Source of the DNA: a virus
Length of the DNA stretch: 20,202 nucleotides
IMG/VR virus record: IMGVR_UViG_3300027791_000175
Location: 1-20,202 of that record
Strand: one strand, 5' to 3'
A program made the position numbers and the translations under genes. Below the pieces are notes generated by a model. The model saw only the letters and a program-made list of their open reading frames with translations, had not been told where the DNA came from and did not search any database. Below are positions 17,100 to 20,202 of the stretch, one piece after another (the stretch's first letter is position 1; every line of letters starts with the position of its first letter).

Positions 17100-17474
17100 T
17101 TGCAGGATCAAGCCGCAAGCGCAAATGTCGGACGGGCCGGGGAATACCTCGCCCTAAGCCGACTTAGTCTCGCAGGATACTTCTGCACACTTGCGCCTTC
17201 GCAGGACCATGACGCGTATATACAGATGGATACACGCATACTGACTTTGCAGGTCAAGACGTCATCAAAAATCAGGCACCAGAAATATCAATTCTTCACC
17301 AAGCAAAGCGAAATCCGGCAGCGGTCTGACGTTTACGCATTCGTGTCGATGGACCTTAATAAGATTTTCTTCTGCCGTGGAGATGACCCAATAATCAGGC
17401 CAAGCTCAACGCACTTGGATGCTGAATTATTTGAGCCGGGTAGTATGCAAGAAGTTTTATCTTCGTTCGATTGA
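17100..17474 (+). CDS. PD-(D/E)XK-type nuclease, Mrr-like QVK variant
   Basis: The 124-residue product starts at TTG 17100, the only start codon between the in-frame stop at 17091-17093 and the conserved core; the upstream site is weak (AGG at 17087-17089). The fold signature is clear: a helix with glutamate (GRAGEYLALSRLSLAGY, Glu15), an acidic strand (SQDHDAYI, Asp38), then a strand LTLQVKTSS with Gln51-Val-Lys53. In PD-(D/E)XK enzymes these are the metal and catalytic residues; Gln in place of Glu occurs in Mrr-type and PDDEXK_5 proteins. The gene follows the endolysin by 11 bases and ends the plus-strand unit. Role could be host DNA degradation, recombination or exclusion; the sequence does not decide. 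Confidence 0.65.
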   Translation: MQDQAASANVGRAGEYLALSRLSLAGYFCTLAPSQDHDAYIQMDTRILTLQVKTSSKIRHQKYQFFTKQSEIRQRSDVYAFVSMDLNKIFFCRGDDPIIRPSSTHLDAELFEPGSMQEVLSSFD

Positions 17475-17547: not shown

Positions 17548-17772
17548 TTAACTATTCGGCCTCGCCACTGGCCGGATGCTGCTTGACGGCATGTCAGTTC
17601 GCTCACATTGCGCCATGCTATCTCTAGACTGCGCTAAGATGACGGGGTAGATCGCATCAATAGCCACTGAGCATGTCTGCATGTCCTTGAAGTAAACAGT
17701 TGACGTGGCCTCATAGGAGGTCACGCCAATGTTTACGGTGTAGGTCAGGATTAGTGCTGCCCAGTAAGTCAT
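17548..17772 (-). CDS. Small exported protein of unknown function
   Basis: This 74-residue protein is the last gene of the minus-strand cluster and overlaps the upstream gene by ATGA (17769-17772). Its N-terminus is hydrophobic (MTYWAALILTYTVNIGV, residues 1-17), resembling a signal peptide or anchor with no positive charge at the start. The remainder contains two cysteines (residues 34 and 56) in MQTCSVAIDAIYPV and DSMAQCERTD and a Pro/Arg-rich tail. Two Cys after a signal segment suggest a small periplasmic disulphide protein. I do not recognise the family. The exact overlap supports it as a gene; function is unknown. Confidence 0.55.
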   Translation of the reverse strand: MTYWAALILTYTVNIGVTSYEATSTVYFKDMQTCSVAIDAIYPVILAQSRDSMAQCERTDMPSSSIRPVARPNS

Positions 17773-18533
17773 CGTTCATCCTCAAATGGTGAATGGAATG
17801 CCTCGATAGGCTGCTTGCAGAACACCCAGCGCCATTGCGGCTTAGTCTGGTCCTTGATTTCCACATAATCGCGCACCCGGTGTATTTTTTCAGCTAAAAC
17901 CAATTTCTTCAAATAGCTGGCTGTGCGTGGGATACTATCCCCAAGCAACTCAGCGGCGTCTGCGACGGTAACGCGCTGGTCATCGCTCAGCATGCCGATA
18001 AGTTTCTCACCTTGCGCTATGCCATACGCCTTACGCCTGCTAGCTATTTCAAGCGCGCCCTTGTGCATCGTGCTTTGCCGTGGCTTCATCGACGGCAATG
18101 GCCCACGGTTTTTTAGTTTGTATTGCAGCCGCTCAAACTCAAGAATGCAATGGCCGTAAGTTATCTCGTATCGCTTATACTTGTCAGTGACGCCCTGAAG
18201 GCTTGCCTTTAGTCTGCCTTCGGGAGAGCGTTTAAAGCGGATTTCAGCCTCTCTAGCAGCACGCTCTGCTCCTGTAGCCTCTGCTGCAAGTTTGGCCTCT
18301 TCAAGGTGTTCGGCTCGCTCAGCATGATCGAGTTCACTCTCTCGAGCCTCTGGATATACTTCATTATTTTTTCCATGCCTTACCTTTCTGGCTAAAGTTA
18401 TACCTAATTTTTTTGCGATGCGGTGGACCGTTGAATTGGAAATGTGCAGCAATTCTGCAATCTCGCCCTGACACATATTCATCTCAGCGCACTTGATGAG
18501 ATGATCTATTGTGGCGTCTGAAGTCTTGGTCAT
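17769..18533 (-). CDS. DNA-binding protein with two HTH domains
   Basis: The start is the ATG at 18533, with GGAGG at 18541-18545; a longer frame from 18575 overlaps the zinc protein gene and lacks a site. The product has 254 residues. Residues 10-47 are a classical helix-turn-helix (CQGEIAELLHISNSTVHRIA, then KKLGI). Residues 62-110 are a long charged helix (ERAEHLEEAKLAAEATGAER). Residues 115-145 are helical with aromatic residues. Residues 178-225 form a second winged-helix-like unit (RVTVADAAELLGDSIPRTAS, then YLKKLVLAEKIHRV). It may regulate the minus-strand operon, act in replication control or bind the origin. Two DNA-binding heads joined by a helix would fit a looping or dimeric regulator. 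Family not identified. Confidence 0.7.
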   Translation of the reverse strand: MTKTSDATIDHLIKCAEMNMCQGEIAELLHISNSTVHRIAKKLGITLARKVRHGKNNEVYPEARESELDHAERAEHLEEAKLAAEATGAERAAREAEIRFKRSPEGRLKASLQGVTDKYKRYEITYGHCILEFERLQYKLKNRGPLPSMKPRQSTMHKGALEIASRRKAYGIAQGEKLIGMLSDDQRVTVADAAELLGDSIPRTASYLKKLVLAEKIHRVRDYVEIKDQTKPQWRWVFCKQPIEAFHSPFEDER

Positions 18534-18697
18534 TCGTCTTCCTCCATAGGCTCTACTTGGCCTGTTCCTGCGCAATTATCGCATTCAGTTGTTTCTGTGT
18601 CTGGAAAGCCATAATCATTGTTAAGGCTTTGCGTGACAAACGTCTCGCGTTCCTGTGATCCAGTGCCATTGCACTCAGGGCAATCAATCCATTCCAT
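18530..18697 (-). CDS. Zinc-binding mini-protein, DnaJ central-domain type
   Basis: A 55-residue frame lies between the HNH gene and the HTH gene. Its ATG (18697) overlaps the HNH stop as TAATG, an AGGGAGAAGA site lies at 18701-18710, and its TGA overlaps the next ATG as ATGA (18530-18533). It contains two CxxCxGxG motifs, CPECNGTG (residues 6-13) and CDNCAGTG (39-46), separated by 25 residues, which are half of the four motifs of the DnaJ Cys-rich domain and should hold one Zn2+. The tail is acidic (EPMEEDE). There is no J-domain. Such mini zinc proteins may aid folding or bridge replication proteins. The motifs and double overlap make it a clear gene; function is unproven. Confidence 0.8.
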   Translation of the reverse strand: MEWIDCPECNGTGSQERETFVTQSLNNDYGFPDTETTECDNCAGTGQVEPMEEDE

Positions 18698-18999
18698 TAC
18701 TCTTCTCCCTTAGCTGCATCTATGTGGTGTTTGTTTGCGTAAGTGTGGATGGCGTGGCAGTTGGCGCACAACACCTCACACTTTTCCATTTCGGCCACGA
18801 CGTTTTTCATTACGCCTTTACTGGCTAACTTTGAAACACTCATAACCTTATCTGAAGGGTCCAAGTGGTTAAAATGTAAAGCCACAGGATGCTCAGCGTA
18901 GCCGCAGCGATTGCAGCCTGCATTAATTTTAAAATTGTCTACAAATGCCCTAATTTTTGCCGCGCGCTCGACGGCCAATTGCTGCGCCCTGCTACGCAT
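18697..18999 (-). CDS. HNH endonuclease
   Basis: This 100-residue protein is an HNH-type nuclease. It has a basic N-terminal helix (RAQQLAVERAAKIRAFVDNF), a first zinc knuckle CNRCG (Cys29, Cys32), the core LHFNHLDPSDK (His42, Asn44, His45) and a second block KCEVLCANCHAIHTY (Cys78, Cys81, His82, His85). The two Cys pairs hold structural zinc; the HFNHLD and CHAIH histidines form the ββα-metal site. Phage HNH proteins assist terminase packaging or act as homing endonucleases; this one sits in the replication cluster, overlapping RepA-like and zinc-protein genes by one base each, so it is a regular operon member rather than a recent free-standing insertion. The specific target is unknown. Confidence 0.85.
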   Translation of the reverse strand: MRSRAQQLAVERAAKIRAFVDNFKINAGCNRCGYAEHPVALHFNHLDPSDKVMSVSKLASKGVMKNVVAEMEKCEVLCANCHAIHTYANKHHIDAAKGEE

Positions 19000-20202
19000 T
19001 ACGAAACATCCTTACATTTACCGTCTTTATCAGTGAACCAAACGAAACCCTCGTTCTGCACCAAATGTCCTGCGCCAATCAACGCTTCAATAGACTGCTT
19101 ATATGTAGAGCGCGGATTTGCCACTGAGGACACTTTGCCAACAAAGTGATCCTTCACTGTCTCCTCAGAGATAACCCAAAAGGTGCGTGGCTCAGGCCAG
19201 CCGGGGCCACCCGGATTTGGATTGCCTATGCCCTCGCCGCGCAATTGCGTAAACACCTTGCGAATAAGCAACTGGTTCTTGCCCTTGATGCGTGGCTTGT
19301 TGGCTTCCTCAATCTCACTGTCTGACGCCTTGTGAATGGTACAGGTTGTTACAGCATCGCCATCCTCATCTATGCCAAGCTCAATCACGTTTAGCTTGAA
19401 CGAGAATAGCGTACCCGTCTCCATGTCGCGCTGCTTAGTTGCCCTTGCCGTGCGCATGCCCGTGGCTTCATCGTGGTCCAACTCAATCTCTGTGTCGGTT
19501 GCCGCGCGTAAACTTGAGTGGCCGCGCGCTCCCGCTGCTTTATCTTTGCCTGAGTGATGCACAACTGCCAAGCTGGCACTTGTTATCTCGCGCAGCTTAT
19601 CGCAGTTGCCAATAAACTTGGTCATGTCTTCCGGAGAGTTTTCATTGCCGCCAGCCATAGAGCGGCTGAGCGTGTCCACAACAATAAACTTAACTTGGCC
19701 GTGCTTGCGAGACACCTCACGGCATAGCTTCTCCAGCACGACCATGTCCACGTCGCCATCAAGCAAGTTTACCGGCAAAGGTCTAACGGCAAGCTTAACG
19801 TCCTTGTGTTCGGGGTACTGTCGGCTGAGAGCCACAACCCGGTTGTGCATCCCCATGCCGCCTTCTGTGGCGAGATACAAAACTGAGCCGCCAATAACTT
19901 TATGGCCGTTCCATTCCTGCCCGGCAGCAATATGCCAAGCCATGTCTAAAGCGAAGAACGACTTGCCCACGTTGGACGGGCCATAGATCACAGACATCTG
20001 CCCGTCGCCCAACCAGCCCTTAACAAGGTAGTTGCGGCTGAGTTGCGGTATTGCCTCACCCGGCATGAAGATTTGGTCCATCACGCTCTGCACTGTCAGC
20101 GCCTTGCGTGTTGCATCTGGGCCTTGGTTGACCCACATGTCGGAATAGTCCCAGCCATCATTCTCAGGCATGATGTACTCAACGCCCAACTCAGAGAATG
20201 CG
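18999..20202 (-). CDS. RepA-like AAA/RecA-fold replicative helicase, probably Toprim-primase fusion (5' truncated)
   Basis: The protein is a hexameric-helicase-type RecA ATPase. Walker A GPSNVGKS is encoded at 19959-19982, followed by FFALDMAWHIAAGQEW; Walker B is KFIVVDTLSRS; the sensor block is LAVVHHSGKDKAAGARGHSS then LRAATD. These are hallmarks of RepA-like (AAA_25) ATPases of phages and plasmids. The C-terminus, from about 100 residues before the end (LLIRKVFTQLRG, then STYKQSIEALIGAGHLV), looks like a winged helix. The frame stays open to the right edge. The first visible residues (GVEYIMPENDGWDYSDMWVN) resemble the end of a Toprim primase domain ('.D.ND....G'), so the ATG at 20171 and TTG at 20189 are probably internal. 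It heads the minus-strand replication operon visible here. Confidence 0.87.
   Translation of the reverse strand, partial: AFSELGVEYIMPENDGWDYSDMWVNQGPDATRKALTVQSVMDQIFMPGEAIPQLSRNYLVKGWLGDGQMSVIYGPSNVGKSFFALDMAWHIAAGQEWNGHKVIGGSVLYLATEGGMGMHNRVVALSRQYPEHKDVKLAVRPLPVNLLDGDVDMVVLEKLCREVSRKHGQVKFIVVDTLSRSMAGGNENSPEDMTKFIGNCDKLREITSASLAVVHHSGKDKAAGARGHSSLRAATDTEIELDHDEATGMRTARATKQRDMETGTLFSFKLNVIELGIDEDGDAVTTCTIHKASDSEIEEANKPRIKGKNQLLIRKVFTQLRGEGIGNPNPGGPGWPEPRTFWVISEETVKDHFVGKVSSVANPRSTYKQSIEALIGAGHLVQNEGFVWFTDKDGKCKDVS

Follow-up and report, generated by a model that had tools for sequence, protein, structure and literature searches.

What does a stand-alone half of a DnaJ zinc domain do in a marine phage, and which of its neighboring genes does it work with? 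The question arises from a 20,202-nucleotide stretch of viral DNA (the window), in which a 55-residue protein (MEWIDCPECNGTGSQERETFVTQSLNNDYGFPDTETTECDNCAGTGQVEPMEEDE) is encoded among genes for a primase-helicase, an HNH endonuclease, and an HTH/winged-helix regulator (Table 1). A sequence-only reading of the window had described two CxxCxGxG motifs 25 residues apart in this protein and linked it, speculatively, to replication. We confirmed the motifs and their spacing and place the gene on the minus strand. Comparison with relatives points to a testable role in regulation, in place of the speculative one in replication.

Table 1. Features of the zinc-protein locus, in window coordinates
Feature	Position	Strand	Description	Basis
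Primase-helicase	18999..20202	-	C-terminal part, cut at the window edge; 657 aa in G002	
HNH endonuclease gene	18697..18999	-	100 aa; between helicase and zinc-protein gene, in the window's lineage only	Relatives compared
Zinc-protein gene	18530..18697	-	55 aa; half-DnaJ protein with a single putative zinc site	ORF conserved, four Cys kept, purifying selection
Motif 1, CPECNGTG	18659..18682	-	Residues 6-13	Cys invariant in A2 alignment
Linker	18584..18658	-	25 residues; predicted long beta-hairpin, strands 14-21 and 31-38	AlphaFold2
Motif 2, CDNCAGTG	18560..18583	-	Residues 39-46	ORF translation, A2 alignment
HTH regulator gene	17769..18533	-	254 aa; conserved partner, ATGA overlap with zinc-protein gene	
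Leader of nested gene	18377..18394	-	Shine-Dalgarno-like GAAAGGTAAGG	
Nested gene	18209..18376	-	55 aa (MEKIMKYIQRLERVNSIMLSEPNTLKRPNLQQRLQEQSVLLERLKSALNALPKAD); +1 frame of HTH gene	
Small gene	17548..17772	-	74 aa (MTYWAALILTYTV...); overlaps HTH stop, downstream of HTH in many relatives	

Conservation and predicted fold of the zinc protein

Relatives of the zinc protein were recovered from viral contigs at 10 loci and then at 40, down to 40% identity. The four cysteines are present in all 86 distinct relatives that adjoin an HTH gene, and both full CxxCxGxG motifs in 85 of the 86; the first motif of the L009 and L010 proteins reads CNGTRT. The window gene and its L025 counterpart are separated by seven synonymous and no amino-acid changes, other pairwise dN/dS values range from 0 to 0.38 (mostly <0.2), and the frame is under purifying selection. 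The sequence-only reading was to be dropped if related phages had lost the cysteines or showed no conservation of the frame; since the cysteines are kept and the frame is selected, it stands on this point. Invariant flanking residues (WIDCPEC, E16, S24, and G30) and an acidic C-terminal tail are specific to the family. At two loci (L009:2000-2440 and L032:3992-4432), the protein is 146 aa long with an extended, probably coiled-coil tail, and the HTH gene still follows it.

The Pfam DnaJ central domain (PF00684) matched the zinc protein at 25.1 bits (cut-off, 32.7) over profile positions 17 to 53, corresponding to DnaJ motifs 2 and 3, and none of six records scored above the curated cut-off. 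Pfam Anti-TRAP (23.7 bits) also stayed below its curated cut-off, and NCBIfam RtpA (NF058604) gave 20.5 bits (cut-off, 65). All 21 members of the A2 alignment matched Pfam DnaJ_CXXCXGXG at E<=0.01, and 19 matched Anti-TRAP. The Q-like antiterminator families PHROG 127 and PHROG 6060 (the latter a family of 61 positions) were matched by 17 of the 21, weakly and driven by the cysteines (best E values among members, 3.8e-4 and 2.4e-5, respectively). Searched against PDB sequences with a wider alignment, the family matched DnaJ (1exk), with far weaker matches to anti-TRAP (3lcz/2bx9) and Q (7ubj); a PDB profile search from six close sequences alone returned no match.

The AlphaFold2 model (mean pLDDT, 80.5) has two knuckles with a long beta-hairpin between them, which is the knuckle-and-hairpin fold of the DnaJ central domain. 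Its top Foldseek match was DnaJA2 (7zhs; probability 0.97, TM 0.54, with a poor E of 0.23), and lambda Q (4mo1) was matched weakly (TM 0.45, with a poor E of 4.3). No J-domain (PF00226) was detected in genomes G002, G003, and G005, and the control genomes were positive. Based on this predicted anatomy, the protein is probably the single-zinc half of a DnaJ domain. The PF00684 alignment, the DnaJA2 fold match, and the search for PF00226 bear out the earlier proposal of one DnaJ-type zinc site with no J-domain. In fold and motif, the identification as half of a DnaJ domain is correct, but the protein is not a member of the DnaJ family. The protein adds to the small half-DnaJ phage proteins, a kind already known.

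Relatives in named phages gave weak matches only, and a host-prophage scan of genome contigs produced three doubtful ones (25 to 36% identity or 10 residues long). For the helicase and portal proteins, the nearest named phages were Roseobacter CRP phages and Octadecabacter DB virus 2. In PADLOC, the zinc protein had no match and the regulator had weak HTH-type ones only; a defence or counter-defence role was rejected on this outcome.

Gene neighborhood and the regulator partner

Both junctions described in the sequence-only reading are present in the window: a TAATG at 18697, where a single A is common to the HNH stop and the zinc-gene start, and an ATGA, where the zinc-gene stop TGA (18532-18530) overlaps the HTH-gene ATG (18533-18531). 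The two differ in reach, as the link to HNH holds in the window but not in general and is local to the window's lineage. We saw the HNH gene in the window and L026-L028 only and did not find it in L001 and L005-L010. Relatives without it have the zinc-gene leader immediately after the helicase stop, and that leader corresponds to the end of the HNH gene, its final codons plus stop (GGAGAAGAGTAA). The HNH gene is a local insertion whose end is the ancestral ribosome-binding leader of the zinc gene. As a functional partner it was rejected, being inserted, missing in most relatives, and ending in what serves elsewhere as the zinc-gene leader.

The HTH gene is a far steadier neighbor. The zinc gene lies directly upstream of it, mostly with a 4-base overlap, for 101 of 115 distinct HTH genes; one gene intervenes in 11 (gaps of 724 to 730 nt), and the zinc gene is missing in three. 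Seven of the 11 gaps match a PAPS-reductase-like protein (L040:1296-2030), which in L040 overlaps the zinc gene by 4 bases; a gene of the PAPS reductase family is also found close to the helicase of CRP-821. Of 107 testable relatives, counted as distinct cases, 22 have a helicase upstream of the zinc gene (19 directly and 3 with HNH between). The helicase of G006 is on the opposite strand several kilobases off, while its zinc gene still accompanies the HTH gene. More distant zinc-protein relatives (L046, L047, and L053-L062) are followed by another small gene that is repressor- or HTH-like by eye; its L054 copy had no significant PHROG match. The conserved pairing with helicase and HNH proposed in the sequence-only reading therefore did not hold up under the neighbor survey, with its 22 of 107 helicase cases and with HNH missing in L001 and L005-L010. 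Gene order across relatives thus ties the zinc gene to the gene of a DNA-binding regulator and not to the helicase.

The regulator is predicted to have an N-terminal HTH (residues 6 to 43), coiled helices (67 to 139), and a C-terminal winged helix (158 to 239). Among its sequence matches are HTH_24 and PHROG 323 (D5-like transcriptional regulator), and Foldseek returned many similar winged-helix regulators, none at E <= 0.001. No annotated phage record matched it. A role as the small terminase subunit was rejected, since G002 has a separate candidate adjoining its large terminase. Convergent with the zinc/HTH operon and kept in most relatives is a gene at 17100-17474 (+) for a 124-aa protein (MQDQAASANVGRAGEYLALSRL...), which by eye is PD-(D/E)XK-type nuclease-like and which weakly matches PHROG 5018.

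A candidate gene nested within the regulator gene

The survey of genes downstream of the zinc gene also yielded a second frame, a by-product more surprising than the half-DnaJ protein itself. A +1 frame within the HTH gene was open in every one of 119 distinct genes, a set gathered in part with the nested protein as the query, although the genes found by HTH searches only all carry the nested ORF too. It is open even in L045, despite an identity of only about 25% between HTH proteins. The start codon is ATG, GTG, or TTG in 113 of 116 cases, and 96 of 116 have a Shine-Dalgarno-like sequence. Every surveyed copy of the nested gene lies within an HTH gene.

Substitution patterns change at the borders of this frame. 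Synonymous divergence of the HTH frame drops from ∼0.61 to 0.25 exactly across the nested gene, and the fraction of comparisons in which HTH-frame four-fold sites differ is 0.13 within the nested region versus 0.52 outside, falling as low as 0.013 in residues 61 to 70. The HTH protein itself is less conserved there, with an amino-acid identity of 0.51 inside and 0.64 outside. The third codon position of the HTH frame coincides with the second of the nested frame and is the slowest inside the nested region (0.22 versus 0.49); the first HTH position coincides with the nested wobble position and is the fastest there (0.38). Among random synonymous recodings, 0 of 2,000 sets kept all 16 nested frames open. 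An RNA element alone was rejected as the explanation, as it would not preserve the nested protein RLERVNSIMLSEPxTxxRPNLxQRLxEQ.

There is strong comparative support for the nested ORF as a conserved, long-lived, same-strand overlapping gene. The marine-phage regulator gene would thus carry a third, previously unlisted product that ordinary annotation overlooks. The nested protein had no significant PHROG match; that it acts as a small helical modulator of the HTH regulator is a guess.

Possible roles and comparison with known systems

We put at about an even chance the reading in which the zinc protein is a small zinc adaptor that works with the HTH/winged-helix regulator. Two CxxCxGxG knuckles linked through a beta-hairpin would bind one zinc ion, and the protein would be translated just ahead of, and coupled to, the HTH and winged-helix regulator. 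It would then most likely bind the regulator or an RNA polymerase that the regulator recruits, and the two genes together would do the job of Q-type antiterminators, in which both modules lie in one chain. The base for this reading is a protein family with four conserved cysteines, selection on its frame, a conserved gene pair, and a predicted fold, from which we infer that the protein binds zinc, associates physically with the regulator, and takes part in transcription control. In its favor, the zinc-HTH pair is intact in G006 despite a helicase located elsewhere on the other strand, and >100 distinct phage contigs keep the zinc gene coupled to one DNA-binding regulator. Against it, all of the family scores fall below curated cut-offs, and both Foldseek E values given above are poor. 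A gene order common to one phage lineage is evidence of co-inheritance and not of binding, and unrelated phages have similar small proteins near genes for a primase or helicase (CB7_72, Kyle gp83, and Vibrio 1.119 gp68). The regulator resembles many winged-helix proteins, none at E <= 0.001, so it may act in transcription or, for example, in replication initiation. An extension in which the zinc, HTH, and +1-frame proteins form one three-part regulatory unit in a widespread group of marine phages, that is, a split Q-like regulator with its own coiled modulator overprinted on it, seems to us somewhat doubtful.

Two alternatives have the zinc protein act without its neighbor. Like anti-TRAP, it might oligomerize through its knuckles and block a host RNA- or DNA-binding protein, with the HTH gene a mere operon mate. 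The two proteins are of similar size (55 versus 53 aa) and have two motifs of identical type, zinc is required for the assembly and function of anti-TRAP (PMC2896485), and the Pfam Anti-TRAP matches across the A2 alignment point the same way. We nevertheless regard this as unlikely, given an RtpA score far under its cut-off, a 25-residue linker far longer than that of anti-TRAP (zinc-binding segment at residues 9 to 36; PMC2896485), and a fixed order with the HTH gene that would be left unexplained. It is decidedly improbable that the protein is a decoy or modulator of host DnaK/DnaJ, a free zinc center II that binds DnaK or its clients with no J-domain. The match to DnaJ motifs 2 and 3 and the DnaJA2 fold match favor such a role, and a family of chloroplast chaperones based on a DnaJ-like Zn-finger domain has been described (ZnJ2; PMC5818400). 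Set against this are the presence of one of the two zinc sites only, the lack of a J-domain in the genome, and the flanking residues and acidic tail particular to this family; nor would a chaperone decoy require the tight coupling to an HTH regulator gene that is seen in >100 genomes.

The replication reading held that the free protein supplies in trans, acting with the helicase, the partial DnaJ module reported for the polymerase of phage HMO-2011. That precedent is real, as gp12 of HMO-2011 is annotated with DnaJ_CXXCXGXG between its exonuclease and polymerase domains (PMC9038755), and proximity also speaks for the idea: the window gene is near the primase-helicase, and its CB7 counterpart directly follows a primase/helicase gene. 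The test case is G002 (35,637 bases; loci L021 and L022), which is 95 to 97% identical to the window across most shared stretches and which we take as a complete, circularly permuted genome because of a 215-base direct terminal repeat (99%) at its ends. It has no family A (PF00476) or family B (PF00136) DNA polymerase, and its largest replication protein is the 657-aa primase-helicase; in the window, the ORF-tool start of that gene at 20189 is not the real start. Lacking those polymerases, G002 presumably replicates on the host polymerase and its own primase-helicase. A polymerase was thus rejected as partner of the zinc protein, and with no such enzyme in G002, and with motif spacing and alignment that do not fit, the in-trans module has no partner here. 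Together with the minority of relatives in which a helicase lies upstream, this leaves the replication reading not supported, and we consider it a very remote prospect.

DnaJ has four CxxCxGxG motifs and a J-domain and works with DnaK. Its cysteine-rich domain (PF00684; E. coli DnaJ 1EXK and DNAJA2 7ZHS) is the best sequence and fold match of the zinc protein, the likeness lying in the site II knuckles and the beta-hairpin. Unlike J-domain co-chaperones, with their four motifs and two zinc sites, the zinc protein has two motifs and no second site, lacks the J-domain and substrate domains, and has a longer hairpin linker (25 residues). Anti-TRAP (RtpA) of Bacillus, a 53-residue stand-alone protein that regulates a nucleic-acid-binding protein (PMC2896485), is likewise small with two CxxCxGxG motifs and, like the zinc protein, uses the motif 2-3 half of the DnaJ domain; the zinc protein differs from anti-TRAP in its longer linker, its acidic C-terminal tail, and its place in a phage gene coupled to HTH.

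Like the zinc protein, the module of HMO-2011-type polymerases comes from a marine phage and has two CXXCXGXG motifs (PMC9038755), but it is embedded in PolA, its motif starts are 25 residues apart versus 33 here, and it aligns with the zinc profile motif by motif, in two separate pieces rather than contiguously; the zinc protein is neither located in a family A polymerase nor, judging from G002, accompanied by one. Small proteins with two CxxCxGxG motifs are also known from Pectobacterium phage CB7 (CB7_72, 43 bits against the zinc-protein profile built in this analysis), Pantoea phage Kyle (gp83), Vibrio phage 1.119 (gp68), Burkholderia phage BcepNY3 (gp18), and Bacillus phage Riggi, although these are larger proteins from unrelated phages with other neighbors.

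In lambda Q, a single chain contains both a zinc knuckle and an HTH. Among phage transcription regulators, Q-type antiterminators (PHROGs 127 and 6060; lambda Q 4MO1/7UBJ; Loki gp45) also contain a half-DnaJ zinc knuckle, a likeness that is weak in score (PHROG 127 E value and 4MO1 Foldseek match, above). The HTH of lambda Q is confirmed (PMC6606751), and gp45 of phage Loki, which has two CXXCXGXG motifs, was reported to match lambda Q in HHsearch (PMC5313236). The zinc protein has no HTH in its own chain; in the phages studied here, unlike in lambda Q, the zinc and HTH modules are separate, coupled genes.
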